Shown here: in pieces, positions 7,540-53,319 of the stretch
Layout: every line of letters starts with the position of its first letter
Position numbering within the stretch: the stretch's first letter is position 1
DNA from: Hybos culiciformis
Lineage: Eukaryota > Arthropoda > Insecta > Diptera > Hybotidae
Assembly (NCBI GenBank): GCA_964007475.1
Contig: OZ023274.1
Location: forward strand, 26,193,090-26,257,089
Direction of reading: 5' to 3'
DNA length: 64,000 nt
Program-made: the position numbers and the translations under genes
Notes under the pieces: model-generated
Database searches by the model: none
What the model saw: only the letters and a program-made list of their open reading frames with translations
Told to the model about the DNA's origin: nothing

Positions 7540-9040
7540 CTAAAATCCATATTTACGTTTTTTTGGAAATGTTTTCCTTAAATTCATTAAAAATATTGTT
7601 GATTTTGGTAATCCATTTTTACAAACAATTCCTTTGAAAGTGATATCAATGCCTTCTATAGCTTTATATGTTCCCAAAAACCAATGTACATAATCATCAA
7701 AGGGAAATTCTTTGAAAAAAATTTTGAATTTAAACAATATCGTATCTATTATCCAAATAGAAAACCGTATTGATGAAAATACTACATAATATAATAAAAT
7801 TGTTGGCATTAAAAATAATAAACATGTTAAAAATAACACTGTTATATACCATTGCTGATTCATTTGCTCTAAGCTTTCGGTACGATTTTTTAATGAATTT
7901 ATACGTCTTCCTACAGCCATTTTCCATAATGTTTTTAAACCAATTTTTTCAATATTAAATAAAACCGAAGTATAAATGTAAAAGTAATGTGCATGTAATG
8001 TAACCAAATTTAATAAATCACTAAATAAAGCTAATTGACACGATATTCCAAAAATTCCGGCAACAGCTATTGGAATCAATAAAATTTGTATAAATGGAGA
8101 AATAATTGCAATAAAAGTTGACCATAAATCGATGTGGTATGTGAAACAATCGAGTAAAAAATTATTTAATTGAAAATTTAATTTTAATCCAATTGGATTT
8201 CCTTTTAGTGATTGCAATAAAAATCTTAAATGAAAAATAACTTCTTGGGTGGCATCCAAAACATATTCACCATGCTTGTACCTAAAAAAAATATTAAAAT
8301 TAAAGTTTCGATTTCAATCCCAATAACGATTATTGGCCAAATTTTAATTACCACGACAAAATGAACCACATCAGCCCCAATCCAACGATCAGATCAATAA
8401 GTTCTCTTTTTTCATTCGATTTTTTAGATGACTTCATCAAACTATAATTTGATAATGTGTTTTCAACTTTTTTCTTTGGCACAAATAATTCTAATGGTTT
8501 GAATCCTATTTTTATGATAAATATTAAAATTTCTTGAACAGTGTATCGAATATTAGATAAAAATTTTAAAAGTCCCATTACGTCCCCATAACTTGAAGTT
8601 GATTTCAATTCACCATCCTCAACGGAAATATTCTGATCGTCGTATATATAGAAATTACATTGAATATCCTTAGCTGAATAAATTGAAGTAGATTGCAAAA
8701 AAATCTCTCCGGACTCATCAAATGATAAGACAATTTTATTTTCGTAGGTTTTTCTAAAATTAAAGTTAAAAGGTTGGTAGGTACATAACGATTATTTAAA
8801 TTTTCATATGATAAAACCTAAGTAAGATTATAGGTAGGTACCTACTTGATTAGTTAAATTTTAGTTAATTGGTCCTTACCTAATGTTCGTGATAACACCT
8901 AATCTTTTTGAGTTCTGATTTGGATTCGGAATTATGAAATATGATATTAAATTTTCATCAATTAAATTTTCACCAAAAAGTTCACAATCATTTAATTTTT
9001 CCAGGTAAATTGATTCTGGTATGAAAATATTTAACTTCAT
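7540..9040 (-). CDS. PIGQ: GPI N-acetylglucosaminyltransferase subunit Q (PIG-Q/GPI1), complete
   Basis: Three exons, 8880-9040, 8352-8753 and 7540-8281, join in frame (161+402+742 nt) to 434 residues plus stop. Splice sites are AG/GTAAGG, TTTTAG, TG/GTAATT and TTTTTAG. The C-terminal half is the Gpi1 domain: GLKLNFQLNNFLLD, then YHIDLW, several hydrophobic membrane helices, LWKMAVGRRINSLKNR and a second helical bundle with YYVVFSS. PIG-Q is a scaffold of the ER-membrane GPI-GlcNAc transferase (with PIG-A, C, H, P), which makes GlcNAc-PI, the first step of GPI-anchor synthesis. The start is the ATG at 9040, giving MKLNIFIPES; no in-frame stop separates it from the first donor. The N-terminal part (about residues 1-185) is poorly conserved in this family. 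The protein is shorter than the human subunit but the membrane domain looks whole. Confidence 0.92.
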
Positions 9041-15711: not shown

Positions 15712-16696
15712 CTAAGTAACTAAGTAACTAAGTAACTAAGTAACTAAGTAACTAAGTAACTAAGTAACTAAGTAACTAAGTAACTAAGTAACTAAGTAAC
15801 TAAGTAACTAAGTAACTAAGTAACTAAGTAACTAAGTAACTAAGTAACTAAGTAACTAAGTAACTAAGTAACTAAGTAACTAAGTAACTAAGTAACTAAG
15901 TAACTAAGTAACTAAGTAACTAAGTAACTAAGTAACTAAGTAACTAAGTAACTAAGTAACTAAGTAACTAAGTAACTAAGTAACTAAGTAACTAAGTAAC
16001 TAAGTAACTAAGTAACTAAGTAACTAAGTAACTAAGTAACTAAGTAACTAAGTAACTAAGTAACTAAGTAACTAAGTAACTAAGTAACTAAGTAACTAAG
16101 TAACTAAGTAACTAAGTAACTAAGTAACTAAGTAACTAAGTAACTAAGTAACTAAGTAACTAAGTAACTAAGTAACTAAGTAACTAAGTAACTAAGTAAC
16201 TAAGTAACTAAGTAACTAAGTAACTAAGTAACTAAGTAACTAAGTAACTAAGTAACTAAGTAACTAAGTAACTAAGTAACTAAGTAACTAAGTAACTAAG
16301 TAACTAAGTAACTAAGTAACTAAGTAACTAAGTAACTAAGTAACTAAGTAACTAAGTAACTAAGTAACTAAGTAACTAAGTAACTTAGTAACTAAGTAAC
16401 TAAGTAACTAAGTAACTAAGTAACTAAGTAACTAAGTAACTAAGTAACTAAGTAACTAAGTAACTAAGTAACTAAGTAACTAAGTTACTAAGTAACTAAC
16501 TAACTAAGTAACTAAGTAACTAAGTAACTAAGTAACTAAGTAACTAAGTAACTAAGTAACTAAGTTACTAAGTAACTAAGCAACTAAGTAACTAAGTAAC
16601 TAAGCAACTAAGCAACTAAGCAACTAAGTAACTAAGTAACTAAGTAACTAAGTAACTAAGTAACTAAGTAAGTAACTAAGTAACTAAGTAACTAAG
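15712..16696 (+). repeat. Octanucleotide array (CTAAGTAA)n, about 123 copies
   Basis: 985 bp of a single 8-bp unit lying exactly within the retrotransposon RT codons, between a QHGF motif and a following RSTTTNL motif. The first roughly 670 bp are essentially invariant. Variant units (TAACTTAG, AAGTTACT, AAGCAACT, a 4-bp-shortened TAACTAACTAAG and a duplicated AAGTAAGTAAC) are confined to about 16381-16670. The host sequence on either side contains CTAAG, a likely seed. Confidence 0.97.
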
Positions 16697-20614: not shown

Positions 20615-20978
20615 TGTTACAATCGTAACATGAAAAATTTCTAAGTCTTTAAACGACTTAAAATTGTAAAATTCAACGAAATAAAATTAATGTTAAGATA
20701 AGAAAATGCACACAATGCAAAATGTGCAGACAAATTTTATTTTTTCTCACAATTTCATACTTAAATTTAATTTGACAAAAATGCAAATTGCAATTTAATT
20801 ATATTTCAATTCATAATTCTCATTTTTATTATTGTAGTTTTATATTACTTATAATTTTTATATTATTTATAATTTTTATACTACTTATAATTATTGTACC
20901 AAATAAATTGTACAGTTCGTTATAAACCATCAACTAAACAACATCTTTTTATTTATAACTAACAAAGTGCTTTCTTCA
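20615..20978 (+). repeat. 5' LTR of BEL/Pao element
   Basis: 364 bp, begins TGTTACAATCG and ends GTGCTTTCTTCA. Nearly identical to 45206-45570. Contains TACTTATAATTTTTATA repeats and AATAAATTG near its 3' part, which could serve polyadenylation. Confidence 0.95.
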
Positions 20979-20997: not shown

Positions 20998-21532
20998 CTA
21001 TATCCACTGAAAATCGTCAATCCGGGACTACATCCACTGAAAATCAAAGGACAAAATTTAAAATTCTGAATTGAGAAAAAATATAAAAAAATTTTAGAAA
21101 CAAAAAAGTTTAAATACTGAATTTTTGAAAAAGGAAAAATTGAAAAGAAACTAAAATTATTATTGAGGAAAATTTGAAAAAAATGGTAGTTTTTTTTGAA
21201 AAATATTAAATAAAATTTCGTTATAAAATAAATTTTAACTTTAACTTTGGTATTTTTTTACAAAATTATTCAAAAAAAAATTTTTTTAAAATTTAAAATC
21301 ATACAGTCCAACAATATTTGAAAAAAAACAAGTTTTTAAACAGAATTTAGAAAAAAAACACACGAAGCAGTCATAGAACTGCCTACAGAAATTTATACTT
21401 AAAGATTGAAAAAAATATGAAATAACAGTGGCTACAAATGATAGGCTGCTGAGTACAAAATGTAAATTAAAATATTTTACCCTCTACCAAAAAAACGCAC
21501 AACGCGGCTAACGAAGTATAAACTTCAAAAAA

Positions 21533-21943
21533 ATTTTCGTATATTTTACTCCGGCACGACCTAACCGTAGCTCCCCACCCAAAATATTTTTTCAAGTAAT
21601 CTTAATTTCACCGGAGCTACCTATTAAAAAAAAAAAAAAGTTCGTATATTTTGCTCCGGCACGACCTAACCGTAGCTCCCCACCCAAAAATTTTTTTTCA
21701 GGTAATATTAATTTCACCGGAGCTACCTATTTTGAACAAATAATTTTTCGTATATTTTGCTCCGGCACGACCTAACCGTAGCTCCCCACCCAAAAAATTT
21801 TTTTCAGGTAATATTAATTTCACCGGAGCTACCTATTTTGAAAAAAAAAATGTTTTCGTATATTTTACGTCGGCACGACCTAACCGTAGCTCCCTGCCCA
21901 AAAATTTTTCGGCTGGTAATCTTAATTTCACCGGAGCTACCTA
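21533..21943 (+). repeat. Satellite of about 106 bp, four copies (left block)
   Basis: Unit: TTTCGTATATTTTGCTCCGG, CACGACCTAACCGTAGCTCC, CCACCCAAAAA, TTTTTTTCAGGTAATATTAA, TTTCACCGGAGCTACCTATT, then an A run. Each unit contains self-complementary GCTCCGG/CCGGAGC and GTAGCTCC/GGAGCTAC pairs. The last unit stops exactly at TACCTA, where the long-TIR element begins; the array resumes at 29381. Confidence 0.92.
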
Positions 21944-21949
21944 AGTAGA

Positions 21950-22540
21950 TAGTTTATGAGAGTTCTGGATAAATATGCGGATCCATTTATGCGGATCCTC
22001 TATTATATGAGAGTTCTAGATAAATTTAAGCGGATCCTCTATTATATGAGAGTTCTAGATAAATTTAAGCGGATCTCTATTATATGAGAGTTCTAGATAA
22101 ATTTAAGCGGATCTTCGTATTATATGAGAGTTCTAGATAAATTTAAGCGGATCCTCGTATTATATGAGAGTTCTGGATAAATTTAAGCGGATCCTCGTAT
22201 TATATGAGAGTTCTAGATAAATTTAAGCGGATCCTCGTATTATATGAGAGTTCTAGATAAATTTAAGCGGATCCATGTTTAAGCGGATCCATATTAAAGT
22301 GGATTATTTAAGCAAATTATTTAAGTGGATTATTTAAGTGGATTATTTAAGCGGATTTCGAATTATTTAATCGGATTATTTAAGCGGAGCCGTGTGTTAA
22401 GTAAATTATTTTAAGTGGAGCCGTGTATTAGTAAATTATTTTAAGTAATGAAAGTTATATCTAAGTGGATTATTTAAGCGGAGCCGTGTGTTAAGTAAAT
22501 TATTTTAAGTGAATCAGCGCATTTGATTCAAATTTAAGTG
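21950..22540 (+). repeat. Subterminal tandem repeats of the left arm
   Basis: Eight copies of GAGAGTTCTAGATAAATTTA followed by AGCGGATCCTCGTATTATAT (about 40 bp) run to about 22270. Degenerate shorter repeats of TTAAGTGGATTATT / TTAAGCGGAT and CCGTGTGTTAAGTAAATTATTT follow. The mirror image lies at about 28790-29375, also with eight long units. Confidence 0.9.
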
Positions 22541-24114
22541 GAGCCATATTTATATGTATTTTCAAATAATTATAATTGATGTGTAAAAATGCTGACAACT
22601 GTAATTTGAGATTCGAATTGATTTTTATATTAAAGTATTTTAATTAAATTATATTATATAAAAGTTAAGTTGAGTTAGAAGAAATTTTTTTTCTATTTGG
22701 TGGATTATTTAAGATGGATAAGTTAAGTGGATATTTTTTCGTGGTATTTGTGAATTATAAATCGTTGGAGCTGCATGTATGTGTGAAAAGTGGATTATTC
22801 CAGGAACCATATTAAATGGATAATTTTAAGTTAAGTTGAGTGGACAATACTAATACTTTTAAATGGTTTGCAGATTCACATAAGTTTTTGTGTTATATTT
22901 TATGTGTAAGAGAATGTAAGCATTTTCAAATAATTATGAAATTGTAAAAATACCGACAAATGTTATTGATTATTTGAAATTAATTGAGATATCATTGTAT
23001 GTGTAAAACATGTGATAATATGTAATTACTAATTAGATATTCGAAAATATAAAAAAAAAACAATTTTTATTCAGCTTAGTATACGATAATTATTATACAA
23101 ACTTGTTTTAAAAAAAATCGTAAACTTAAAAAAAGTGAAAATTCAAAATCTAATTCAATCAAAAAATTAGTGCACAATACTAATACTTTTTTAATTTTCT
23201 TTAAAACAAAAAAATTTAACTGCGCCAGAAATCGAAGCAATTTATTGAAAACTTCGAGAAATATTTTTAATATTAATAATAATTTTTTTCACAAACCAAA
23301 TTTAAAATAAATTGGAAAAATTACAAAATTAAAAAAAATAAAAAAATAAATAAATCATAAAAAATTAAGAAACAAAAATGTTTCATAAATACTTTAATTC
23401 AAAAATAAGATTCGAACAAAAAAATATCATTTAACTCAAAAAATTAAATTAAAAAAAAAAAAATCAAAAATATTAATTCGACTATGAATTCTTCTTTATA
23501 TCAAAATTTGAAATTGCATTTAAATGAAACATACAAAAACTTTCATTTATTATTTTGTGACATCAAATAATATAATTTCCCCAAATAAAGTTTGAAAACT
23601 CGATTCGAAAAATTATAAAATTTTAATTAGTGAATAAAAATTAGTTTTGATTAAAGTAAAAACAATAAAAAAATAATTTCGCTAAAAATTCAAAGTCGGA
23701 TTAAGTATATAGCTCGTCCTAAATAAATAACTAAATAATTTCAAAATGAAAATCAACTTTTATTTCTAATTTCAAAAATAATTTCGCAGTTTCGTGAATT
23801 TTATAATTAAAGTATGAGATAAAATTAAAAATAGAAATTTGATTAACATGTACTAGAAAAATTCAATTCAATTTCAAATGTTTCAATTCAATTTCAAATG
23901 CTTCCCTAAATAAAAAATACAGACACAACATTTTGTCATTAAAATCTTTATTAGACATATTGATAATTTTAAAGTAAATAATTTATTAGTTAAGATAATA
24001 TGTAAATAAAAATTATAATTAAAGCTAAAAATAAAGTAAATATATCTTTTTTTAAATTACAGCTTTTCTTCACTTAAAAAAATTTAGAAATTCGACCACC
24101 ATCATACAAAGCTC

Positions 24115-24456
24115 CTATTCATCCTCATCGTCATCGTCATTACCATCATAGCCACTATCTGATGACATAACACTGTCCCATTCATCCTCATCATCATTAC
24201 TATTATCACCATCATCCTCCATAGGATTATAGAGGTAATCTTCATCACCACTGCTTATTATACCATCATCCTGCTCGTCTTCTTCAGAATCAGCAACATC
24301 ATTCTCATCATCACTGCTTATTATACCAACATCCTGCTCCTCTTCTTTAGAATCAGCACCACCATTCTCATCATCACTGCTTATTATCTCCACAACATCG
24401 CAATATTTCAGGAATATATATTTGTGGCCATTAATCGTATTACTGATCACATCGGT
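24115..24456 (-). pseudogene. Left-arm copy of the acidic-protein exon 2, without exon 1
   Basis: 342 bp, minus strand, mirror of 26814-27155 with the same acceptor (TTTTTCAG) and the same length. It differs by at least one residue (ISSGDEDY instead of ISSSDEDY). The arm homology ends inside the intron (about 24547), so no first exon lies upstream. A continuous frame through the T-rich intron to 24582 exists but begins in homopolymer sequence and is not a credible protein start. Confidence 0.7.
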
Positions 24457-24872
24457 CTGAAAAATATATATATATATAAAATACTGATAAATATATAAAA
24501 CAAAAAAAAAAAAAAAAATTAAGAACAAAAAACTAAAGAAAAAAAAATTAAGAACAAGAATCGAGTTTAAATTTTTTCTCAAACTTTATTATTGATGTTA
24601 CAAAATAATAAACAGTTTTAAATAAAAAATTTTCTGTGTTTCACTTAAGTTCAATTTGAATCTGATTTAAATTTTGAAATAAAGAAAAATTTATATTCGA
24701 ATTTATTATTATTATTATTATTTTTTTTTAAATATTATAAGTTAAATGATATTTGTTTAAGACCAATCTTTTTTTTGAATTAAAATATTTGTTTGTTAAT
24801 ACATTTTACTAGGAAATGAAAATTCTTTAAAAAATTTCTGTTGTTATATACAAAAAATGTTAACACTTTCTT

Positions 24873-24961
24873 AAGCATCGCTCTTGCTAAATTGGTAAAG
24901 TCTTCGAAATAATTAAGCTAGAGAGGTGCTTTTTTCCCTGGTTCGATTCCCCCACAGTATC
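24873..24961 (+). pseudogene. tRNA-like sequence (Pol III A and B boxes)
   Basis: CTTGCTAAATTGGTAAAG resembles an A box and GGTTCGATTCC is a perfect B box about 45 bp later, as in a long-variable-arm tRNA (Leu/Ser type). The acceptor stem does not close, so I call it a tRNA-derived relic. It lies in the centre of the 7.4-kb element. Confidence 0.4.
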
Positions 24962-25128
24962 TAATTGATATATCAGTTTTAACAGATCCTTCATGATGAT
25001 ATTACGTGGGTAAGATATAAAAAAATAAAAGTTATCGTGATAATTGAAAATACCTATATAAAAATCTTTTAATATGCGAATTTAAAATTAAATTTTCTTT
25101 TAAAGTGAGAATATTTAAGATCATCTAA

Positions 25129-25745
25129 TAGTCCAAGAGCTCGCAACGTAAGAATTCACGTGATTTTAGCAAGGCTCATTTTTTAATATAATGTTCCATA
25201 CTACGGTGCAGGACGCATAAAGGTAGTCTGGCTGTCAGACGACTTTGCGTTTACCCGTGGGAGCAGAACCAAGTAGGTAAAAAAAATTCAAAATTACATG
25301 AAAAAAACAAATTACTTTTAAATGACATAGGTCTGGCATCCATTTAGCAACGGTATTTCCGTCTGGCAAATCGGATGTAGTATATATAAGATCCAATCTA
25401 TAACATATAAAAATTTCAGCCTTGCTAAAATGACGTGAAATTGAAGTTTTTTTTTGTTATAAATCAAGGTCTGGCACGGTCTTAACAACTCCGAAACCGT
25501 CTGGCAATGATGCATTAACATTTCATATAATAAGCACAAACAAGTGACATAACTAGAAATCGTGCTATTATCACGTAATTTTGCATTTTTTCTTTGACCT
25601 ACCTGGATCTGCTCCCACGGGTAAACGCAACGTCATCTGACAGCCAGACTACCCTTATGGGTCCTGCACCGTAGCATTTAACAATATTTTAAAAAATGAG
25701 CCTTGCTAAAATCACGTGCCAAAAACGTTGCGAGCTCTTAGACTA
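25129..25745. mobile_element. 617-bp MITE, TIR TAGTCCAAGAGCTCGCAACG, TSD TAA
   Basis: Inverted ends of about 150 bp with an inner block CCCGTGGGAGCAG / CTGCTCCCACGGG, and TAA on both sides (25126-25128, 25746-25748). Three-base TAA duplications point to PIF/Harbinger. It lies in the central spacer of the 7.4-kb element and is therefore a younger insertion or old cargo. A minus-strand frame at 25318-25539 is not conserved-looking. Confidence 0.75.
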
Positions 25746-26514
25746 TAATATTTACAAATTAATCTTTACTTATAATGAAATCAAAATTTGGATTTACTTA
25801 AAAACTTATTCAGTGGAGATCGAATTTAAATTTTTACTTTAGAGTCTAAATATACATTGCTTGCATAATTTCTAAATTCAAAAAGATTATAAGATCATCT
25901 CATATTCATAAATCTGTTTTTCTAAGATTGACAAATGGAAATGCAGTTTTTCATGTAATTGCAAATTATTCTATTTATCGGTAATTAACTATTCTTTCTT
26001 TAATTATTTTTACATTATTATAATCTAATTTCCTTCTTTAGATTTTTATTATATTGAACTTCTAAATTTTTGCAGTTTTATCATTATTATTTGAGTTTGT
26101 AAAATAATTTAAACATCTGTGGGAAAAAATAAAAATTGAAACCCAATCAAATTATTTTCCCATAGTATTTATTAATTCCCGAATTTTTGTATTAATTCAA
26201 TATTATTTTAATAAAAGTAAATGCTTATCACTAAGAAATATATTGCACACATTGCAAACATTTAATGTTAAAATAAAGAATTTAATAAATTTCTAACAAA
26301 ATAAATGCCTATCAGTAGGAAATATGATAAATAGTGGCAGTAATTTAATATTAAAATAAGGAATTTTAGTAAATTGTTTTGAGTAATATTTTTTACATAT
26401 AAATTATCTAATTTTTTGATTTTTTTGTTTAAGTTAATTAGGTATAAATTTGAGAATTTTTCTTTTTTAAATTACATTTTAATTAAATCCTTAAATTAGT
26501 CCAAAACAATAAGA

Positions 26515-27155
26515 ATGATTGATTTTGATTGTATGAACTTATTTAATTTTATTTTAACTCGTTTTCGGAGTATTAATGATCGTCCTTTTGGAGATGATCT
26601 CGCGGAATTCGTCCAAATGTATCGACGAGTAATAATTTATGTTTGTGAATTCGGTACCGATCATTTTGTAATAATTACAAATATGATTCCTGAGGCAGAT
26701 TTCCCGGTGAGTCTAAATTTTTTTTTCTTTAGTTTTTTGTTCTTAATTTTTATCTTTTTTTTTTTTTTTTGTTTTATATATTTATCAGTATTTTATATAT
26801 ATATATTTTTCAGACCGATGTGATCAGTAATACGATTAATGGCCACAAATATATATTCCTGAAATATTGCGATGTTGTGGAGATAATAAGCAGTGATGAT
26901 GAGAATGGTGGTGCTGATTCTAAAGAAGAGGAGCAGGATGTTGGTATAATAAGCAGTGATGATGAGAATGATGTTGCTGATTCTGAAGAAGACGAGCAGG
27001 ATGATGGTATAATAAGCAGTAGTGATGAAGATTACCTCTATAATCCTATGGAGGATGATGGTGATAATAGTAATGATGATGAGGATGAATGGGACAGTGT
27101 TATGTCATCAGATAGTGGCTATGATGGTAATGACGATGACGATGAGGATGAATAG
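26515..27155 (+). CDS. Acidic protein of the 7.4-kb element, two exons, 177 aa, unknown function
   Basis: Exon 1 (26515-26706, 64 codons) ends CCG/GTGAGT. Exon 2 (26814-27155) begins after TATTTTTCAG, and the join is in phase 0. The N-terminal half (MIDFDCMNLFNFILTRF ... FGTDHFVIITNMIPEADFP) looks like a small folded domain with alternating hydrophobics. The C-terminal half is extremely acidic, with three repeats of IISSDDEN/IISSSDED separated by EEEQDVG/EDEQDDG, ending NDDDDEDE. I do not recognise it. An AATAAA signal at 27318-27323 follows the stop. Exon 1 is in the unique centre, exon 2 inside the right inverted arm. The acidic tail with Ser-Asp/Glu casein-kinase-like sites would suit a DNA-mimic or histone-binding role, which is only a guess. 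Confidence 0.65.
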
Positions 27156-27317
27156 GAGCTTAGTATGATGGTGGTCGAATTTCTAAATTTTTTTAAGTGA
27201 AGAAAAGCTGTAATTTAAAAAAAGATATATTTACTTTATTTTTAGCTTTAATTATAATTTTTATTTACATATTATCTTAACTAATAAATTATTTACTTTA
27301 AAATTATCAATATGTCT

Positions 27318-27323
27318 AATAAA
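27318..27323 (+). terminator. Polyadenylation signal AATAAA
   Basis: AATAAA 163 bp after the stop of the acidic gene. Its mirror lies in the left arm downstream of the orphan exon 2. Confidence 0.5.
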
Positions 27324-28789
27324 GATTTTAATAACAAAATGTTGTGTCTGTATTTTTTATTTAGGGAAGCATTTGAAATTGAATTGAAACATTTGAAATT
27401 GAATTGAATTTTTCTAGTACATGTTAATCAAATTTCTATTTTTAATTTTATCTCATACTTTAATTATAAAATTCACGAAACTGCGAAATTATTTTTGAAA
27501 TTAGAAATAAAAGTTGATTTTCATTTTGAAATTATTTAGTTATTTATTTAGGACGAGCTATATACTTAATCCGACTTTGAATTTTTAGCGAAATTATTTT
27601 TTTATTGTTTTTACTTTAATCAAAACTAATTTTTATTCACTAATTAAAATTTTATAATTTTTCGAATCGAGTTTTCAAACTTTATTTGGGGAAATTATAT
27701 TATTTGATGTCACAAAATAATAAATGAAAGTTTTTGTATGTTTCATTTAAATGCAATTTCAAATTTTGATATAAAGAAGAATTCATAGTCGAATTAATAT
27801 TTTTGATTTTTTTTTTTTTAATTTAATTTTTTGAGTTAAATGATATTTTTTTGTTCGAACCTTATTTTTGAATTAAAGTATTTATGAAACATTTTTGTTT
27901 CTTAATTTTTTATGATTTATTTATTTTTTTATTTTTTTTAATTTTGTAATTTTTCCAATTTATTTTAAATTTGGTTTGTGAAAAAAATTATTATTAATAT
28001 TAAAAATATTTCTCGAAGTTTTCAATAAATTGCTTCAATTTCTGGCGCAGTTAAATTTTTTTGTTTTAAAGAAAATTAAAAAAGTATTAGTATTGTGCAC
28101 TAATTTTTTGATTGAATTAGATTTTAAATTTTCACTTTTTTTAAGTTTACGATTTTTTTTAAAACTAGTTTGTATAATAATTATCGTATACTAAGCTGAA
28201 TAAAAATTGTTTTTTTTTTATATTTTCGAATATCTAATTAGTAATTACATATTATCACATGTTTTACACATACAATGATATCTCAATTAATTTCAAATAA
28301 TCAATAACATTTGTCGGTATTTTTACAATTTCATAATTATTTGAAAATGCTTACATACATTCTCTTACACATAAAATATAACACAAAAACTTATGTGAAT
28401 CTGCAAACCATTTAAAAGTATTAGTATTGTCCACTCAACTTAACTTAAAATTATCCATTTAATATGGTTCCTGGAATAATCCACTTTTCACACATACATG
28501 CAGCACAAATACCACGAAAAAATATCCACTTAACTTATCCATCTTAAATAATCCACCAAATAGAAAAAAAATTTCTTCTAACTCAACTTAACTTTTATAT
28601 ATATATTTTAATTTAAATATTTTAATGTAAAAATTAATTGAAATAGAAAAAATTTCTTCTAACTCAACTTAACTTTTATATACATACTTAATTTAATTAA
28701 AATACTTTAATATAAAAATCAATTCGAATCTCAAATTACAGTTGTCAGCATTTTTACACATCAATTATAATTATTTGAAAATACATATA

Positions 28790-29375
28790 AATATGGCTCC
28801 ACTTAAATTTGAATCAAATGCGCTGATTCACTTAAAATAATTTACTTAACACACGGCTCCGTTTAAATAATCCACTTAGATATAACTTTCATTACTTAAA
28901 ATAATTTACTAATACACGACTCCACTTAAAATAATTTACTTAACACACGGCTCCGCTTAAATAATCCGATTAAATAATTCGAAATCCGGTTAAATAATCC
29001 ACTTAAATAATCCACTTTAATATGGATCCGCTTAAACATGGATCCGCTTAAATTTATCTAGAACTCTCATATAATACGAGGATCCGCTTAAATTTATCTA
29101 GAACTCTCATATAATACGAGGATCCGCTTAAATTTATCCAGAACTCTCATATAATACGAGGATCCGCTTAAATTTATCTAGAACTCTCATATAATAGAGG
29201 ATCCGCTTAAATTTATCTAGAACTCTCATATAATAGACGATCCGCTTAAATTTATCTAGAACTCTCATATAATAGAGGATCCGCTTAAATTTATCTAGAA
29301 CTCTCATATAATAGACGATCCGCATGGATCCTCATAAATGGATCCGCATATTTATCCAGAACTCTCATAAACTAT
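28790..29375 (-). repeat. Subterminal tandem repeats of the right arm
   Basis: Mirror of 21950-22540: short TAAATAATCCACTTA-type repeats, then eight copies of the 40-bp unit on the complementary strand (ATCCGCTTAAATTTATCTAG, AACTCTCATATAATACGAGG). Confidence 0.9.
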
Positions 29376-29380
29376 CTACT

Positions 29381-30380
29381 TACCTATTTTGAAACAAAAA
29401 TTTTCGTATATTTTGCTCCGGAACGACCTAACCATAGCTCCCAACTCAAAAATTTTTTTTCAGGTAATATTAATTTCACCGGAGCTACCTATTTTGAAAA
29501 AAAAAAACTTTTCGTATATTTTGCTCCGGCACGACCTAACCGTAGCTCCCCACCCAAAAATTTTTTTTCAGGTAATATTAATTTCACCGGAGCTACCTAT
29601 TTTGAAAAAAAAAATTTCGTATATTTTGCTCCGGCACGACCTAACCGTAGCTCCCCACCCAAAAAATTTTTTTCAGTTAATATTAATTTCACCGGAGCTA
29701 CCTATTTAAAAAAAAAAAATTTTCGTATATTTTGCTCGGGCACGACCTAACCGTAGCTCCCCACCCAAAAAATTTTTTTCAGTTAATATTAATTTCACCT
29801 GAACTACCTATTTAAAAAAAAAAAATTTTCGTATATTTTGCTCCGGCACGACCTAACCGTAGCTCCCCACCCAAAAATTTTTTTCAGGTAATAATAATTT
29901 CACCGGGGCTCCCTATTTAAAAAAAAAAAATTTTCGTATATTTTGCTCCGGCACGACCTAACCGTAGCTCCCCACCCAAAAAATTTTTTTCAGTTAATAT
30001 TAATTTCACCGGAACTACCTATTTAAAAAAATTTTGCTCCGGCACGACCTAACCGTAGCTCCCCACCCAAAATTTTTCGGCTGGTAATCTTAATTTCACC
30101 GGAGCTACCTATTTAAAAAAAAAAAAATTTTCGTATATGCAACGGCACGACCTAACCGTAGCTCCCCACCCAAAATTTTTTTTTCAGTTAATATTAATTT
30201 CACCGGAGATCCCTATTTAAAAAAAAAAATTATTTTTCGTATATTTTGCTCCGACACGACCTAACCGTAGCTCCCCACCCAAAATTTTTTTTTCAGTTAA
30301 TATTAATTTCACCGGAGCTACCTATTTTGAAAAAAAAAAAAAATTTCTTATATTTTGCTCCGGCACGACCTAACCGTAGC
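29381..30380 (+). repeat. Satellite of about 106 bp, ten copies (right block)
   Basis: Same unit and same orientation as 21533-21943, resuming with TACCTATTTTG. CGACCTAACC occurs ten times at spacings of about 90-110 bp; the last unit is cut after CCGTAGC. Open frames across it (for example 29389-29709) are periodic shadows of the repeat. Confidence 0.93.
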
Positions 30381-30431
30381 TTTTTTGCTTGTAATATTGG
30401 GCCCTATATATACATATATTTGAAATTAAAA

Positions 30432-30497
30432 AATCTTGTCATTGGGAATCGAACCAGGCACCTTCAGACTTACAGTCTGATGTTCTAGCTACTAAGC
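30432..30497 (-). pseudogene. tRNA-Tyr(GTA)-like pseudogene
   Basis: On the minus strand, TGGCTTAGTAGC (A box) and GGTTCGATTCC (B box) bracket a perfect 5-bp anticodon stem TCAGA/TCTGA with loop CTGTAAG (anticodon GTA, Tyr). The acceptor and T stems do not pair, so it is not a functional tRNA. It sits between the satellite and gag of the BEL/Pao element, which itself uses a tRNA-Tyr primer site. Confidence 0.55.
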
Positions 30498-30674
30498 CAT
30501 ATTGTCCATATGATTTTGGGTTTCTTAAATATAATAAAAAAATAAGTATTTTTATTCTAATTTTTCTGAGCAAAATGATGACGATTCTGAGAAAAATTCT
30601 ATATGAAAATGGATTTTTACCCTCTACCAAAAATCATCAAACGCCGCTAAAGAAGTATAAACTTCAAATAAAAC

Positions 30675-32507
30675 ATGAGTGAAACAATTGATAAATTAAT
30701 TCTTCAACAGGTTGATTTGCCTCGAATCAATCAAAGCTATTGAAATTAACTATAAGAAAGATTCGGAAAGTCGGAAAACCAAAGAATACATTGAAAAACG
30801 GTTAGGAAAACTCGAAGTTATTGTCGGAATTTACGTCGCGAGATAACGAGATTGAAAATTTAAAGCCGGGCTACCAAGATAAACAATATTTCGTAAAAAA
30901 AATTTGCGGAAAGCACTAAAATTAAATTTACTGAAGTAAAAACTTTATTTGATAATAAATTAAAAGAAATTTGTGACAAAGAACAAATAAAAAAAAAATA
31001 GAAGATGTTGAAAAACGAGAAGCAAAGCATCGTGAAGAAGCTGAAAAAGCACTCAAAGCTAAGGAAGAATTGGAGCGGACTCTGAAAGGACTGAGTACTG
31101 GTAACAAGTCAAATGAAAATTCAGATGATGAAGAGGTAAGTCATAATAGCAAACTTCTTAATTCTCAGAAAAAAGTATCAAAATGTTAGATAGACTAGTT
31201 GTTGAAGTATTAAATGATCAGCACGAAAGATCAGTTATGTTTTATCAGCAAAAGTTAAAAACTATTGACAAATACTGGGACAATATTCTAAGAACGCACT
31301 TAGAAATTGAAAAAGAACGCGACGATGAAGTAAAATTCTATATACACCAGCATTTTTTTGAATACATTGAAGAGCAATATCAAAACGCTGCTATCATGCT
31401 ACAAGAAAAAATCGCGGGTACAACTAGTCAAACAATTAAAATGCCAAAAGTTGATTTACTCCGTTCTCTGGAAATTACTCTGAATGGAAACAATTTCAAA
31501 ATTTAGTTAATGAAACCTTGTTACCTAACAAAACAATTGGCCCATCTCAAAAATTACTTTACTTGAAAAAGTCTCTCAAGGGAGAGGCAGCTATTTTAGT
31601 AAAAAACTTTACAGTAACGGAAGATAACCTATACACTGTGTGGGATATTTTAAATGAACGGTACGACAACCAGCGGGTTTTAATTCATTACCAACTTGAA
31701 AAAAAATTTTCGATAAAAAATTTATCATATGAATCAGCAGCAGCAATAAGGAACTTACATGATACTGCCGTAGAAGCGCTTTTAGCCATAAACAACTTGG
31801 GGATTGTCACAGATGGGTGGGATCCTATAATTGTACACATTATTTTGCAAAAACTTGATAAAGAATCTCGAAAAATATTCGAACAAAGTTTAAAAAATCC
31901 GAGAGAAATACAAACAATGAAGGATTTTTTTTCATTTCTTAAATCTCGATTCAATGCGTTAGAAGCCATTGAATCAGGAGCTCAATCCAAAAATAATTCG
32001 AAAACGTCAAGGTCAGGTAATTTTTTTGCAACAAAATCTAAGTGCCCTGTTTGCTCCGCTCATCATAGAATATATCAATGCGAAAGTTTTAAGGCTCTCG
32101 AATTAAATAAAAAATATGACATTGTTAAAAAGTTTAAACTGTGCAACAATTGCTTAAATTCTGGTCATTTTTCTTCAGCATGTAAAAGCAAGTTCAAATG
32201 TTCGGTATGCAACTCGTTATTGCATAAACACAAAAACGACGAACAAAATAGAAAAAAACGGTCAGGCAATAATTCGGGAAAACAAAATTCACCAAAATCT
32301 CCTGAAACCACCAATTGTCATCCAAGTGAAGAAAATAAATCTGAAACAAAAAATGTTTATACAAAAAATTCTAACATTATACTTTTAGCCACTGCGCAAA
32401 TACGAATTATTTCTTCAAATGGAAGTTGTATAGAATTGAGAGCACTGCTAGACCAAGGGTCACAGTCGACATTTATATCGGAGAATGCTGCTCAACAGTT
32501 AAATTAA
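30675..32507 (+). pseudogene. gag: BEL/Pao gag (and start of protease), frameshifted
   Basis: Starts at ATG 30675 (MSETIDKLI) and breaks within about 20 codons. A coiled-coil stretch (EKREAKHREEAEKALKAKEE) follows in another frame near 31010-31090. The DUF1759-like capsid region runs from about 31440, with a frameshift near 31455, to 31975. Zinc-knuckle sequence CPVCSAHHRIYQC ... CNNCLNSGHFSSAC ... CSVC follows at about 32040-32215, and the protease motif LLDQGSQSTFIS ends the segment. The protein would coat the retrotransposon RNA. The frame stops at 32507 just before the inserted Jockey-like element. Confidence 0.85.
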
Positions 32508-32923: not shown

Positions 32924-35032
32924 TTAACTTTCACCTTGGAGCCACCATATTGTACTTTTGATTTTTTCTAATAATTTTTTATCATAATCTGGTATGTATT
33001 TGTTATATCTTATTTGTGTTAAGTGATCAGGGTTATATAGGATTTTTTGATTTGTACTTCTACGAAAGGCATGATAAATTATTGGCGTTGCATTTTCATC
33101 TTGGATATATTTTTTCCCATCTAGGAATATGAATGCTTCTGGGGGAGTGAATCCCGTTTCTAAAGTTTTCAGATAGTAGTCGTCGTTTGGGTAATAAGTG
33201 TTGTCTATTAGACTATTTCCTGTGTTTTTGTATTTTGCGAAATAATTTCTACAAATTTTTATTATAAAGTTATCTATTCTACCTATTTTATTGTTCTTGT
33301 ATAATTCTGATATTCTGTAGTACTTCTTATAATTACTCTCCGGCGTTCTGAACTTTCCCGTTACCGATCTCAAGCATTCCCTTTCAAATTTTCTGATTTT
33401 TTCCATGTTAGACGCGCTACAGTTATACCATATTTGGCATCCGTATGTTAATATTGGTCTAATTAAAGCTTTGTAGGCGGTTAGTTTTACATTTTTGTCT
33501 AAATATGTATTATAAAATAGTTTTTTGCTCAATATAAATGCTAATTTAGCCTTTTTTAGTTGTTGTTTTATGTGATAAGCGTTATTCATTTTTTCGTTTA
33601 AATATATTCCTAAATATTTAACATTCGTATTTTTTGTTATTGTTTCCCCATTTTCCCCTAAAATATGGTAATTTCGCCAATATTTTTTAGCATTGTAGTT
33701 GGCTTGTTCTAGACCTATTCTAAATAACATAGTTTCGCATTTGGCTTCATTCACTATCAGCTTCCAATTTTTGAGGTATTCTATTGTCTTATTATACAAC
33801 TTTTGAATTTTATTTTGTACGGTCGTTACTTTTTTATCGCTAGTATAAATAGTAAGATCATCAGCGTAACTAAGTCCTACATTTGAATTATTTTTAAACA
33901 TATCATTTTGAAATATATCACTTATAAATATATTAAAGTATGTTGGTGCAAGGATAGTTCCTTGTTGTAGCCCGTTAATTACTTTAAACATCGTATCTGA
34001 GTTTTCCACCCCATCTGTAACTATAAACTTTTTGTCTTTCAACATGTCTCTAGTCAGATATATCAAGGGTCTAGATATTGATTTTTCTAACATTTTATGT
34101 ATGAGGCCTTCTGTCCACAAGGTATCAAATGCTGTCGTGAGATCTATCATACATGTTCCTATACATTTTTTATCGTTTAGTTGCCAACTAACGTCTGACA
34201 TTAATTTGTGCACAGCATGAATTGTCGAGTGATTTTTCCTGAACCCGAATTGTGTATCGTCTAGGATATTTTTTTCTTCTATTTGTTTATTTATTTTCAT
34301 TAATATAATTTTTTCAAAAATTTTGCTTATATTTGGGAGAAGATTAATTGGTCTATAGCTACTTGGTTCTGATCTATTTTTTTTTGGTTTTAGAATTGGA
34401 ATAATTTTAGATATTTTCCATATTTCGGGGAAAAAAGAGTTATTTATTATATTGTTGAAAATAGTACAATATTGGTCTATTATAACGTCAGGAATTTTTC
34501 TTAGTATGTAATTTGATATTTCGTCAATTCCGGACGATTTTTTATTATTAATTTTTTTGAATATGTTTTTAACCTCTGTTGGTGTCGTGAAAATATTAGT
34601 ATCTAATTTATTATTGTTCGCTCGGTTGTGTCTACTGAAATTTGTTATTTTAGTGTTATTAGTATTTTTTTCTCTAATTTCATTTTCAATAATTTTATTA
34701 CTATTATTTACCTTTTCTGTAATTTCATCGTTACCGTCTTCTATAAGTTTATGAACTTTTTCAAAGTGTTTACCTAGTATTAAAAGTTTTTCTTTATTAT
34801 TTGTTATTGTAGAAGTCTGATTATTTTCGTTAATTTTTAAATCATATATTTTAGCTCGCCCCTTTTTCCTAAATATCGTGTTTATTTTCTTAAACATATT
34901 CTGATCTTTAGTTGATATTTGTTCGATTCTTTTTTTCCAGTAATTACTAATTGATTTCTCTATGTTTTCATATATTAATTTTTGTGTGACTTTTATTAAG
35001 GATTTGTATTGAATTATTTGAAAACTGTTCAT
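32924..35032 (-). CDS. Jockey-like ORF2, reverse transcriptase part (frame broken from endonuclease)
   Basis: 702 codons. RT motifs in order: KSSGIDEISNYILRK, SSYRPINLLPNISKIFEKI, FGFRKNHSTIHAV, CMIDLTTAFDTLW, NGLQQGTILAPTYFNI, the catalytic LSYADDLTIY, and the thumb/C-terminal RPILTYGCQIWYNCS with IRKFERECLR. It performs target-primed reverse transcription of the element RNA. In an intact copy it would be fused to the endonuclease ORF at 35038-36102. Here a single-base length change in an A run near 35083-35090 puts them in different frames, so the ATG at 35032 is only the first in this frame. Confidence 0.9.
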   Translation of the reverse strand: MNSFQIIQYKSLIKVTQKLIYENIEKSISNYWKKRIEQISTKDQNMFKKINTIFRKKGRAKIYDLKINENNQTSTITNNKEKLLILGKHFEKVHKLIEDGNDEITEKVNNSNKIIENEIREKNTNNTKITNFSRHNRANNNKLDTNIFTTPTEVKNIFKKINNKKSSGIDEISNYILRKIPDVIIDQYCTIFNNIINNSFFPEIWKISKIIPILKPKKNRSEPSSYRPINLLPNISKIFEKIILMKINKQIEEKNILDDTQFGFRKNHSTIHAVHKLMSDVSWQLNDKKCIGTCMIDLTTAFDTLWTEGLIHKMLEKSISRPLIYLTRDMLKDKKFIVTDGVENSDTMFKVINGLQQGTILAPTYFNIFISDIFQNDMFKNNSNVGLSYADDLTIYTSDKKVTTVQNKIQKLYNKTIEYLKNWKLIVNEAKCETMLFRIGLEQANYNAKKYWRNYHILGENGETITKNTNVKYLGIYLNEKMNNAYHIKQQLKKAKLAFILSKKLFYNTYLDKNVKLTAYKALIRPILTYGCQIWYNCSASNMEKIRKFERECLRSVTGKFRTPESNYKKYYRISELYKNNKIGRIDNFIIKICRNYFAKYKNTGNSLIDNTYYPNDDYYLKTLETGFTPPEAFIFLDGKKYIQDENATPIIYHAFRRSTNQKILYNPDHLTQIRYNKYIPDYDKKLLEKIKSTIWWLQGES

Positions 35033-35037
35033 GCAAT

Positions 35038-36102
35038 TTAAGTTATTTTTTCGTAGGTAATTATTCCCGATACGAGTGTGGTTTTTTGCTTTATTAATTT
35101 ATTTATTATAGGGTTTCTGTATCTATTCACATTGTTTTCGTTTCGTTGTTTAGGTGAGCTTTTTTTTGTCGCTTCTGAGATTATGTCATTTATTTTTTCT
35201 ATGTACTGAGTAATTTCATCATTATTCAAATTTTTGTCGTTTGGTACTAATTCGGTTTTATTGTGAGTTTGTGATTTGTAAATCTTTTTTAATATTTTGT
35301 TGAATTTTTCAGTGTCTATTTTGTCTAAATTAATTTTATGTTTTATGTTGTGGTTTTTAATGTCAAAAAGTAGGCAGTCATTTCTTTTGATAATAATTGA
35401 TACGGCTTTATGGTCACTGTCGTATGTTATTGTTTTTAGTTTATTTGTTTGTGACACTGAATCAATTTTAAGCCTTAGGTCTAGTATTGCAAGGTCTAGG
35501 TATGCGCCTGATCTGGGATAAGAAGGTTCATCCGTCGTGTATAACTGACATCTGTACTCAAGTTGATGGTCATCGATCCATCTATTTATAAAATTCCCTC
35601 TTGTATTATTGTTTTCATTACCCCAGCTTTTATGTTTTGCATTTAAATCCCCTGCAATAATATAATAATTTTTTTGTTTTTCTAGTTCTAATGTTTGGAA
35701 TAGGTTTTTAAATTCGCTTTTGAATTTAGTTTTGTTGTGTTCAGAAGCGTATGCTGCTACTACTTTCAGACTTTCATGCTCGTTTATTTCTAAACTTATA
35801 ATAGTTGTTTCCAGGCAAATATTATTTTCACTTTTTATTGTTTCCGTGATTCGAATATTTTCCCTAATTAATATCCCTGTCCCTCCCCCGTCTATAGGGT
35901 CGAAATTTCTGTCAGTTCTTATAAAATTGTATCCCTTAAATATTAGTTCTTTATGTTTTTCTTCATTTAGTCTAAGTTCATTCAAAAGTACAATATGGGG
36001 CTTATTATCTTCTAAAAAATTTTGTAGATAAATTCTTTTATACATTGATATGAGAGAATTAACATTTATTGAAATTATTTTTATTTTATCAATACTGTTC
36101 AT
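35038..36102 (-). CDS. Jockey-like ORF2, AP-endonuclease part
   Basis: 354 codons from ATG 36102. Endonuclease landmarks: ISINVNSL at the start, LLNELRL (catalytic Glu), GGTGILIREN, YIIAGDLNAKHKSWG (Asp/Asn pair), YLDLAILD and TYDSDHKAVSI (terminal Asp-His). It nicks chromosomal DNA to prime reverse transcription. Its end (35038) is an artefact of the frameshift described for the RT part. The start overlaps the small ORF upstream by 14 nt. Confidence 0.9.
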   Translation of the reverse strand: MNSIDKIKIISINVNSLISMYKRIYLQNFLEDNKPHIVLLNELRLNEEKHKELIFKGYNFIRTDRNFDPIDGGGTGILIRENIRITETIKSENNICLETTIISLEINEHESLKVVAAYASEHNKTKFKSEFKNLFQTLELEKQKNYYIIAGDLNAKHKSWGNENNNTRGNFINRWIDDHQLEYRCQLYTTDEPSYPRSGAYLDLAILDLRLKIDSVSQTNKLKTITYDSDHKAVSIIIKRNDCLLFDIKNHNIKHKINLDKIDTEKFNKILKKIYKSQTHNKTELVPNDKNLNNDEITQYIEKINDIISEATKKSSPKQRNENNVNRYRNPIINKLIKQKTTLVSGIITYEKIT

Positions 36103-36259
36103 AATTATTGTTAAATAAGCTATTATAAAGGAAATCTATTCTTTTATTTTGCTCTCCTAAATTATTTTCTATTTTATCTATTTTAATACTTATATTTTTT
36201 ATAAAATCAAAAATGTTGTTCATTGTGATTTCATTGTCATTGTTTCTACTTGATGGCAT
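36089..36259 (-). CDS. Small 56-aa ORF between ORF1 and ORF2 of the Jockey-like element
   Basis: ATG 36259 to TGA 36089 on the minus strand: MPSSRNNDNEITMNNIF... followed by FIKNISIKIDKIENNL and a C-terminal FLYNSLFNNNYEQY. The middle has heptad-like I/L spacing of a short coiled coil. It starts 17 nt after ORF1 stops and ends inside the ORF2 start (the ORF2 ATG lies 14 nt before its end), so it could be real or serve as a re-initiation bridge for ORF2. Not recognised in any family. Confidence 0.45.
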   Translation of the reverse strand: MPSSRNNDNEITMNNIFDFIKNISIKIDKIENNLGEQNKRIDFLYNSLFNNNYEQY

Positions 36260-36275
36260 GTTTTTTTTTGATCAT

Positions 36276-37568
36276 TTAAGCATATGATAAATTTGGTTTT
36301 ACTTTATTGTTAATCATTGTTAATTTCATGTCTCTTCTTATTCTTATTTCATCTCTTTTTTTTTGTAAGTTCTGGTGTAATATCTTGTATTTGGGACATC
36401 CTTTGTATGATGCCGGGTGACCATCATTTCCACATAATACGCATTTTAGTTTTTTGCGTGTTTCATTATTTTCTTTCATTTGTGATTCGTTATCATTAGG
36501 TATTTCGCATTTTCCTGGTTCATGAGTGCCACTGCATTTGACGCACCTATATTGTAACTTGCAATTTGACGCCGTATGCCCGTATCTCTGGCATTTTTTA
36601 CATTGAGTGATTTCATTATTTTTTATCAATTTTTCCCATTTTATAATTCTGTTTTCTATTTCTTTAATTTTGTATATTTCATTTAAGTTCGATGTATTTG
36701 ATGCTTGTACTATGAAAATTGAAGTCTCGTAGTTATTTTCTTTCGAATGTCTAGTCTGTAGTCTTATAACTTTCAAGAACTTTATATTATCGTTTTCATA
36801 TTCTTTCAGTACCTTTAGAATATCTGAGGGTTGGTCCGTTGAGTCTAATCCCTTTAGAATTAACGATTTATTTTTTAATTGCTTTGGTGTGTATGTGTAA
36901 TATTCATATGTCTTTTCATTAATTATTTCCTTAATTTTATTATAATTTTCTAGGTTATTTGCGTAAATCGCATATTTGGATTTATTAATTTTTTTAATTT
37001 TAAACGTATTCCCGTCTAATTTTTCTTTTATGTTGTTTGTTACAATTTTAATTTCATTGTTGAATATATAGATTGGAGGTAGTATTTCTCTCTTATTAAG
37101 TTTTTTATCCGAATTACTATTACTATTTTTATTATTTTTTTTTTCACTTAGATTTTCGTTCAAATTTGATTGAGTATCTTCATTTGATTCAAAGTCCATT
37201 TCGCTCTCTGAATAATCGGACAATACACTATTTTCATAGTTGGTATTTTTTGAATGTAATTGTACGTCTTTCACGTTTTCAGAATAATTATTAATATCAA
37301 AAGTATTATTCCCATTGTTTGATTTATTTTCTTTTAAATTTTTTATTACCTCATTTAACTTTTCAATAAATTTTTTTAAATTTTTAACTTCATTTTTAAG
37401 ATTTTCTACTTTTTTATCTTGATCTATAATTGGTCTAGCTTGTGCTTGGCCGATTTTTTTTTTCTTTTTAGTCATTTTACAATTTTCTGATTTTTTTAAG
37501 TTAGTTAAACTAAGAATTTCTTCCGTTTTCAGATTTTTATATACTTTTTTCAATTCACATGCTTGCAT
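36276..37568 (-). CDS. Jockey-like ORF1 (gag-like RNA-binding protein)
   Basis: 430 codons. The N-terminal half is Lys/Glu/Asn-rich with a coiled-coil stretch (KKVENLKNEVKNLKKFIEKL). The centre is an RRM-like/PRE_C2HC-type domain (KSLILKGLDSTDQPSDI, FLKVIRLQTRHS, SIFIVQASN). The C-terminal end carries CCHC knuckles: CKKCQRYGHTASNC, CVKCSGTHEPGKC, CVLCGNDGHPASYKGC. This is the ORF1 layout of Jockey-clade elements; the protein coats element RNA. The frame is intact. Confidence 0.92.
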   Translation of the reverse strand: MQACELKKVYKNLKTEEILSLTNLKKSENCKMTKKKKKIGQAQARPIIDQDKKVENLKNEVKNLKKFIEKLNEVIKNLKENKSNNGNNTFDINNYSENVKDVQLHSKNTNYENSVLSDYSESEMDFESNEDTQSNLNENLSEKKNNKNSNSNSDKKLNKREILPPIYIFNNEIKIVTNNIKEKLDGNTFKIKKINKSKYAIYANNLENYNKIKEIINEKTYEYYTYTPKQLKNKSLILKGLDSTDQPSDILKVLKEYENDNIKFLKVIRLQTRHSKENNYETSIFIVQASNTSNLNEIYKIKEIENRIIKWEKLIKNNEITQCKKCQRYGHTASNCKLQYRCVKCSGTHEPGKCEIPNDNESQMKENNETRKKLKCVLCGNDGHPASYKGCPKYKILHQNLQKKRDEIRIRRDMKLTMINNKVKPNLSYA

Positions 37569-37679
37569 ATGTGTTTTTATTCTATTTTTTAATCTTTTTT
37601 TATTTATTTATTTTTTTTTTTTTTTTCTCTCTTCTACTTCTATATTTTATAGATAATTTAATTAAATAAATTGTCTTCG

Positions 37680-40940: not shown

Positions 40941-43265
40941 ATCAACCTTTTAAATGTTAATCCAAATGATCCCACTAATATTATTTCATTTCAGCCTGAA
41001 GAGTCATTCAAAATGCTAGGAATCAACTGGAATCCGGCAAAAGATATGTTTATTTACAAAATTGTGTTGCCACAAACTGATCATCCAACGAAAAGAATGT
41101 TTTTATCAGAAATGTCCAAAATTTTTGATCCGATAGGATGGTTGTCACCTACAATTATTAATATTAAAATTTTATTTCAGGACATTTGGTTATCTAAAAT
41201 TGATTGGGATGCACGGATTTTGCGATGCTTCAGCGAAGGCCTATGCAGCAGTCATCTTTGCTAGAATTGAAGATAATGATAGAACTGAAACATTTATATT
41301 AGCAGCCAAAACAAGAGTACCTCCACTCAAATCAAAGCTCACAATACCCAAGCTAGAGCTATGTGCAGCAGTTTTACTTGTTAACCTGATGAAAAAGACA
41401 AGTAGTATCTTTCAATCATCGAAGTTGTTTCTCTGGTCTGATTCAGAAGTAGTATTATCTTGGATTCACAACAAGGCTGAAAAACTCAACACATTTGTCA
41501 GCAATAGAATCAAACAAATTACAAGTAAATCAAAATCTCAACAATGGCATCATGTTAAATCGAAGGAAAATCCTGCGGATTTTGCTTCACGAGGAATCAT
41601 GAAGTTAAAGGATTGCACCTTGTGGTGGGAAGGTCCACAATGGCTTCGCCAGACGGAAGATGCATGGCCAACACAAATTATTCGAAAAATCACACCAGAT
41701 CAAGAATTCAAAACGGTTCTTTTAACAGAAGTTGATACAATGACTACGGAAAATTATATTATCAATAGATTTTCAAATTTTAATAAGCTATTAAAAATTT
41801 TAACTATTATATTAAATTTTGTTAATAATTGTAGAAAAATCCAGCAACAAGTCAATGAAGAAATAGCTGAAAAAACAATCATTCGACTGGTTCAACAAGA
41901 GTTCGAAAATGAGATAAAATTGCTAAGGAATAACAATCAGCTACCATCTAACAGCAAATTGAGAAAACTGAATCCCTTGATTGATGGTGCCAACCTTTTA
42001 CGAGTTGGAGGTCGATTAGAAAATGCTGATGTGGAATATGAAATGAAGCATCCAATGATTCTACCTCACAATTGTCATCTAACTACTTTGATTTTGCGAA
42101 AATACCATACCGATTGCCTACATGGGGGCACAACTTTAACATTATCATTGATCCGTCAACTTTATTGGATTATCAAGGGTCAAAGTACTGTTAAAAGGGA
42201 ATGACATAAATGTGTTGTTTGCGTTAGATTCAAAAAGATAAAACTTGATCAAATTATGGCAGATTTCCCAAAAGCAAGGACAACATTATCGAAACCATTT
42301 AGTGACACTGGATTAGATTATGCCGCACCAATATCAATACGAATGTCAAAAGGAAGAGGCAATAAGTGTTTCAAGGGATATATAGTGCTGTTCATTTGTT
42401 TATCTACTAAGGCAATACTAAGGCAATTCATCTTGAAGTCGTTTCAGATTTGACAGCTAATGGGTTTATATCTGCGTTTAAAAGATTTGTAGGTAGACGA
42501 GGCCTACCTACCGATGGAGTGATAATGCGTCCACCTTTGTACTAGCAACAAAAATCTTGAAAAAGGGATTTGATGATTATTGCGCTGAAATCCAATCGAA
42601 GATAGTTGAACATACAAATCAGTCACATATTCAATGGCATTTCATTCCGCCAAGAGCACCGCATTTCGGCGGTTTATGGGAAGTTGGTGTTAAATCAATG
42701 AAACATCATTTGAGTCGTACATTTAATGACACTACCTTAACATTTGCAGAATTAACAACTGGGTTAATCCAAATTGAATCATGTTTAAACTCTCGTCCTT
42801 TATGTCCACTATCAGATGAAATAACAGACATTGATGTATTAACCCCGGGACATTTTCTTACAGGAGATCATTTGATTGCAATACCACAAAGAAATGAAGG
42901 CGATGTGAATTTGGCATAACAAGATTGAAATTGGTTGAAAGGCTTCATCATCATTTTTGACAAAAATGGTCCCGAGAATATTTACACACTTTACAACAAA
43001 GATCAAAATGGCATTTGCAGAAGAAAAATCTAAAAGCAGGTAATTTAGTTCTAATTGAGGTCCACACTGGGGCAGACAATAATGTAAGGGTTGCTACACT
43101 AAAAACACAAGGTGGAATATTCAAGCGTCCCATTTCAAAGCTGAGTTTACTCCCTGTAGATCATGAAGTAGATCAAAATCAAAATCAACAGACAACAAGT
43201 GTTCATCTCCGAAACCAATTCGGCAAAGCCGCAGAATAAAAAACAAAAAGCTGAATTGTTTAGCC

Positions 43266-52985: not shown

Positions 52986-53319
52986 AGTAAAGAAATATAT
53001 AATTAGATAAATAAATAAATAAATAAATAAACAGACAAATTTGTGTACGAGTTAATAAGAATTGTGTCCTCAAAAAATTCAATTGTGTTGTAGTTCGATG
53101 TAAGTTTTTTGATTTTCGTTTTTGATTTAAATTTATTTCATCTTCAACCTATTATTTTAAGAATGGGTTCATCAGAAGCAGAATATTGCACAGACGAAGA
53201 AAATAAATCAAAAAAGGAAGGAAATGAAAATAGAAAAATTCTTATAATGTAAAATGGTAAACTGAATTCCAGTGGCTAACCAAAGGGAAAGATGATGGTT
53301 CAGCAAAATGTATCCATTG

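Follow-up and report, generated by a model that had tools for sequence, protein, structure and literature searches.

A 7.4-kb gene-carrying foldback-type element, probably a non-autonomous DNA transposon, inside a BEL/Pao retrotransposon of Hybos culiciformis

Introduction

According to the available text of PMC3573991, the arms of Galileo grow by the copying of internal sequence into the other arm, the arrays at its termini are proposed transposase-binding sites, and growth of the inverted repeats has been reported for Polintons too. Template switching with short matching bases has been described for gene-carrying elements with terminal inverted repeats (TIRs), including FB4 (PMC8277862, accessible portion). 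Vertebrate Mavericks produce 6-bp target site duplications (TSDs) and end in the motifs (AGT)2 or (AG)3 (PMC8097293, sections at hand), and in algae, Polinton-like viruses carry direct repeats of about 4–6 bp and TIRs that range from hundreds to thousands of bp (PMC12220804, as excerpted); a 4-bp duplication alone would therefore not exclude that group.

Here we analysed a 64,000-nt stretch of Hybos culiciformis DNA (GenBank assembly GCA_964007475.1, contig OZ023274.1, positions 26,193,090 to 26,257,089 of the forward strand), hereafter the window, which has a GC content of 28%. All coordinates are positions in the window.

Results

Two near-identical inverted arms make up most of the element

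The window contains a foldback element of 7437 bp at 21944–29380, whose two arms lie in inverse orientation and carry tandem repeats at their outer ends:

21944–24553, plus strand: left arm, inverted repeat, from alignment
26712–29380, minus strand: right arm, inverted repeat, from alignment
21944–22274, plus strand: left tip and seven more tandem units at intervals of 38–40 bp; the tip, a divergent unit, lies 51 bp from its neighbour
29040–29380, minus strand: right tip and seven tandem units at intervals of 39–40 bp; the tip lies 61 bp from its neighbour
22278–22505, plus strand: left sub-terminal repeats of 13 and 30 bp
28829–29022, minus strand: right sub-terminal repeats

The left arm measures 2610 bp and the right arm 2669 bp, and together they account for 5279 of the 7437 bp (71%). 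The element thus has long TIRs (2.6 kb), and it has a foldback architecture, in which TIRs containing tandem repeats form most of the element. Eight tandem units open each arm; the seven inner ones are 38–40 bp apart, and the tip is the outermost and most divergent. No further occurrence of the tip sequence was found in the window, and none inside the element. In a global alignment the arms are 99.4% identical: 15 of the 2563 ungapped columns are substitutions, and 9 indels of 1–84 bp come in addition. Chance is no explanation for a match of such length. The spacer between the arms is asymmetric, and the sole run of N in the window (61536–61735) lies outside the element. A first-pass annotation had placed an inverted-repeat element here, had put its inverted-repeat share at 70% and had called the arms near-identical yet not identical, all of which agrees with our measurements.

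Mirrored joins are a known fault of assemblies, and in principle the arms might be such a mirror, or else a pair of copies that inserted head to head. We rejected both and regard them as very improbable, given the 15 substitutions and the 9 indels of up to 84 bp between the arms, the presence of exon 1 (see below) on one side only, the lack of an internal tip or gap, and the matching duplication at the outer ends. The argument made earlier against an assembly mirror therefore holds, with the asymmetric spacer, the gap-free element and the missing internal tip added to the arm differences.

No changepoint separated an outer, older part of the arms from an inner, younger one (p = 0.82 for substitutions, 0.18 for indels, and 0.31 for all 24 events), so that these parts are not datable apart and stepwise extension is unsupported by that test. 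The arm differences fit a single event or ordinary gene conversion alike.

The element interrupts a tandem array of a BEL/Pao retrotransposon

The insertion site is defined by the following features:

20615–45570, plus strand: BEL/Pao LTR retrotransposon in which both the array and the foldback element lie; TSD ATTCA; 7 mismatches between the LTRs in 363 aligned bases, with 3 further gap columns
21526–30381, plus strand: 106-bp tandem array, interrupted by the foldback element
21938–21943, no strand: left copy of the target duplication, TACCTA; shorter parses ACCT or CC
29381–29386, no strand: right copy of the target duplication

The LTRs of the retrotransposon span 20615–20978 and 45206–45570, and the array with the foldback element sits between the 5′ LTR and a gag-like ORF (31455–32507) that matches DUF1759 in Pfam. 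A Pao peptidase match and an envelope-like ORF (43167–44393, Baculo_F match) also belong to this retrotransposon. The first-pass annotation had the element inserted in a satellite; a tandem array is indeed interrupted, but the array is part of the leader of the retrotransposon and not a free satellite. The arms have diverged less (15/2563, 0.6%) than the LTRs (7/363, 1.9%), which, on these small numbers, is in line with a foldback insertion that would postdate the retrotransposon, unless the arms were later homogenised.

The tips of the element are AGTAGATAG and CTATCTACT, with TACCTA on either side. A pattern search listed 12 array sites, of which eight carry the intact empty unit CCGGAGCTACCTAT, three are variants and one is the interrupted unit; this pattern misses some units of the array, and another pattern gave 14. 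Three parses of the duplication recreate the empty site, namely 6 bp (TACCTA, tip AG), 4 bp (ACCT, tip AAG) and 2 bp (CC, tip TAAG); the symmetry between TA-CC-TA and the tips accounts for this. A scan of lengths of 2–11 bp around the ends of this one insertion gave no fit above 6 bp. The 6-bp duplication had been called proven: the AG tips and the flanking TACCTA are present, but six is not a unique solution, and 4 or 2 bp fit equally. By our own reckoning, a duplication of six bp is about three times as likely as one of four. Since the duplication is at most 6 bp in this one insertion, it speaks against MULE/FB- and Galileo-type duplications. The inverted arms and the agreement of their tips support transposition, as does the target duplication: removing the element and one copy of the duplication gives back an uninterrupted repeat unit.

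Several other features of the window were recorded. A direct repeat, 80% identical, flanks the 106-bp array (21436–21533 and 30573–30673), and the BEL/Pao element contains a 259-bp tandem duplication (44596–45113). Within its coding region lies a minus-strand non-LTR retrotransposon (32927–37607) with endonuclease and RVT_1 matches, of which the ORF at 36279–37607 had no Pfam match. Outside the BEL/Pao element, there are an 8-bp satellite, CTAAGTAA, at 15712–16696 (123.6 copies, 97% matches), a probable host gene of the PIG-Q/Gpi1 family on the minus strand at 7543–8313 (Pfam E 3.9e-52), and a cluster of direct and inverted repeats around ORFs at 51799–56424, hAT-like by eye, in which the two ORFs scanned gave no Pfam match.

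A predicted two-exon gene spans the spacer and the right arm

The element carries a gene of two predicted exons, which encodes a predicted orphan protein of 177 aa with an acidic tail and spans the spacer and the right arm:

26515–26706, plus strand: exon 1, single copy in the element; GC 32% versus 18% upstream
26707–26813, plus strand: predicted intron of 107 bp, GTGAGT...TTTTTCAG, within which the arms end
26814–27155, plus strand: exon 2 joined to exon 1, with the acidic tail and a 63-bp repeat
24115–24456, minus strand: exon 2 again, on the left arm and with no exon 1; its product differs by one amino acid

The GC content is 32 and 38% in the exons, 13% in the intron and 17–18% in the flanks. 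The gene is predicted to be spliced, at an intron with GT..AG ends. The left arm lacks exon 1 and the splice donor and repeats only exon 2; the arms therefore end in the intron. A T-rich stretch, TTGTTCTTAATTTTT, lies at the breakpoint of the left arm and occurs again inside the intron. By analogy with Galileo, the presence of exon 2 in both arms, and of exon 1 and the donor on the right only, points to a putative extension of the arms by inverted copying.

A comparison of residues 1–90 of the 177 with 5.8 billion proteins returned one candidate and no homologue at E 10 or better. Three pattern matches to the protein in viral contigs were not confirmed, and no Pfam, NCBIfam or PHROGs family was assigned. 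Two weak PDB matches to the first 88 residues (E 0.69 and 1.7) are not meaningful, and a fold of the 64 aa of exon 1 alone, predicted from the single sequence, reached a mean pLDDT of 62.4, too poor for a fold search.

It is possible, at somewhat less than an even chance, that the gene was captured from the host, as in a Pack-TIR-like foldback, and is foreign to the element's own lineage. Its predicted intron with normal splice sites, the exon GC of 32–38% against 13–18% around, and the absence of homologues in the Pfam, NCBIfam, PHROGs, protein and viral-contig searches would all suit such an origin, for which the FB4 elements carrying Ssk are a precedent (PMC8277862, accessible portion). However, no parental copy is known, and a second, divergent (72%) copy of the sequence downstream of the gene, found in the spacer, suggests long residence in the element.

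This copy and a nested element occupy parts of the spacer:

24558–24790, no strand: divergent (72%) inverted copy of arm segment 23387–23606, just inside the left arm
25129–25745, no strand: nested hairpin element, MITE-like, with a 3-bp TAA on both sides; ends by eye

The 72% copy is older, the trace of an earlier rearrangement. The hairpin element is 617 bp long, its loop contains repeated GTCTGGCA motifs (by eye), and with its TAA flanks we take it to be perhaps PIF/Harbinger-like. B boxes resembling those of tRNAs were seen by eye at 24880–24965 and 30437–30510; ARAGORN and Rfam report no tRNA at either place, nor any Rfam match or tRNA across the window.

The ends are compatible with Polintons, and Polinton genes were not detected

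The tip AGTAGA shares five of its six bases with AGTAGT, the (AGT)2 motif of vertebrate Mavericks (PMC8097293, sections at hand). We searched the element with Pfam in six frames, with X at stops, and found no family up to E 1, and thus no protein-primed PolB, rve integrase, protease, ATPase or capsid domain, and no other transposase or integrase; HMMER filters lose most matches above E 0.1, and the same Pfam library did detect domains in neighbouring ORFs. Without a Pfam match up to E 1, the element looks non-autonomous. The tip and repeat patterns had no match in viral contigs or prokaryote genome contigs, collections that are not expected to include an animal host.

These results bear on several claims of the first-pass annotation. 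That a cargo gene is present was borne out by the two predicted exons, and that recognisable Polinton genes are missing was upheld by the six-frame search. The ends, called Polinton-like, are compatible with that description in their long TIRs and in a tip that departs from (AGT)2 at one base; a duplication of 6 bp, however, is one of three solutions, and no Polinton gene was found. As for the choice offered between a non-autonomous Polinton-derived family and a new foldback class, a mobile element of foldback build with a gene stands, but Polinton membership is not established.

The same build could have been moved by a non-Polinton transposase, whether its superfamily is known or undescribed; the true duplication would then be 4 bp (AAG), 2 bp (TAAG) or 6 bp, and AGTAG a coincidence. 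We give this close to an even chance. All three parses fit it, the element has no detected Polinton gene, and tips that differ from the motifs given in the accessible Ginger and (for the 6-bp parse) IS3EU/GingerRoot sources leave room for an unlisted group. Against it, a shorter duplication requires a further one or two bases to match, with odds of about three to one and eight to one against by our own reckoning, and about 0.7% of positions are expected to hold a tip this close to one of the two Maverick motifs (906 of 127580 six-mers in the window, both strands; 2% when all three parses count). AGTAG itself, a five-base choice made after the fact, occurs 89 times in the window, or at about 0.07% of positions, and a 4-bp duplication alone would still allow Polinton-like viruses, as these are portrayed in the excerpted source. 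Polinton-type mobilisation is thus a live option with modest support, and the element is filed as a gene-carrying, foldback-type, non-autonomous transposon of unsettled superfamily.

Discussion

We interpret the locus as a non-autonomous DNA transposon of foldback build with its own or a captured two-exon gene, which is probably correct; the whole explanation, including arm extension and an enzyme supplied in trans, is likewise rather likely. The tandem tip units would be the binding sites of that enzyme, which would cut and join the tips. The arms would originally have been shorter, and the right arm, carrying the whole gene, would have been the template by which the left side was overwritten with an inverted copy, either while a break in that side was being repaired or through a template switch by a strand folded back on itself. 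Copying would have passed the old inner edge of the right arm, run through exon 2 into the intron and halted in the T-rich stretch, leaving arms of 2.6 kb each and a second exon 2 that lacks exon 1. Since one copy is known, mobility beyond this insertion and the right-to-left direction of copying are what we infer.

The nature of the enzyme is the weakest step. The leading candidate is one of the Polinton/retroviral-integrase kind, favoured because of the 6-bp upper limit, the AGTAG tip and the long repeats, and taken on its own it is tentative, at less than an even chance. A more specific version, which we consider unlikely, is a Polinton satellite that has Polinton-type ends only and a private gene, would be replicated and integrated in trans by a Polinton polymerase and integrase, and would have acquired its giant arms when the strand displaced in protein-primed replication folded back and switched template. 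Our literature search, with most subscription journals outside its coverage and some sources present in part, found no non-autonomous Polinton or Maverick, and a search of the same coverage for insect Polinton end motifs found none.

Among described systems, Galileo (P superfamily, Drosophila) resembles the element in its very long TIRs with internal tandem repeats and in arm extension by internal copying; it differs in that its copies are flanked by 7-bp duplications, against at most 6 bp here, and in that no transposase was found in the element (PMC3573991, available text). A Galileo/P assignment (7–8-bp duplication, THAP-type transposase) was rejected on these two points. Ginger was rejected because the tips do not match its motif TGTNR (PMC2836005, portion consulted). 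IS3EU/GingerRoot makes a 6-bp duplication and has tips that are mostly TA..TA (PMC10045372, portion consulted); TA tips appear in the element only in the 2-bp parse, and this group was rejected as well. So was Dada, which in the source excerpts makes a 6–7-bp duplication in small RNA genes and has a transposase; the window has no Rfam or tRNA match and the element no detected transposase.

FB4/Ssk-FB4 of Drosophila is likewise a foldback with repetitive TIRs and a protein-coding gene, and template switching has been proposed for it (PMC8277862, accessible portion); unlike in FB4, no relative was found for the gene here, and one of its exons is inside the arms. Tetris, a foldback of Drosophila virilis, shares the tandem repeats in the TIRs, the non-autonomous state and the lack of a known transposase, and differs in its 8–10-bp duplications and absence of a conserved ORF (PMC4079207, as far as available). 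Polintons/Mavericks share long TIRs and possibly a 6-bp duplication, and their (AGT)2 end differs at one base from the tip AGTAGA (PMC8097293, sections at hand); unlike them, the element is 7.4 kb long, and polymerase, integrase, protease, ATPase and capsid domains were not found. A MULE-type foldback (FB, Tetris; 8–10-bp duplication) was rejected on the limit of 6 bp in one insertion.

The foldbacks compared make duplications of 7–10 bp (9 bp for the FB type), and a foldback that carries a gene and duplicates no more than 6 bp would represent a separate origin of this architecture. If the ends prove to be Polinton ends, the element would be a non-autonomous Polinton dependant with its own gene, and the growth of Polinton repeats would become directly testable. 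In either case, the exon boundary within the arms offers a clean marker for the extent of arm growth.
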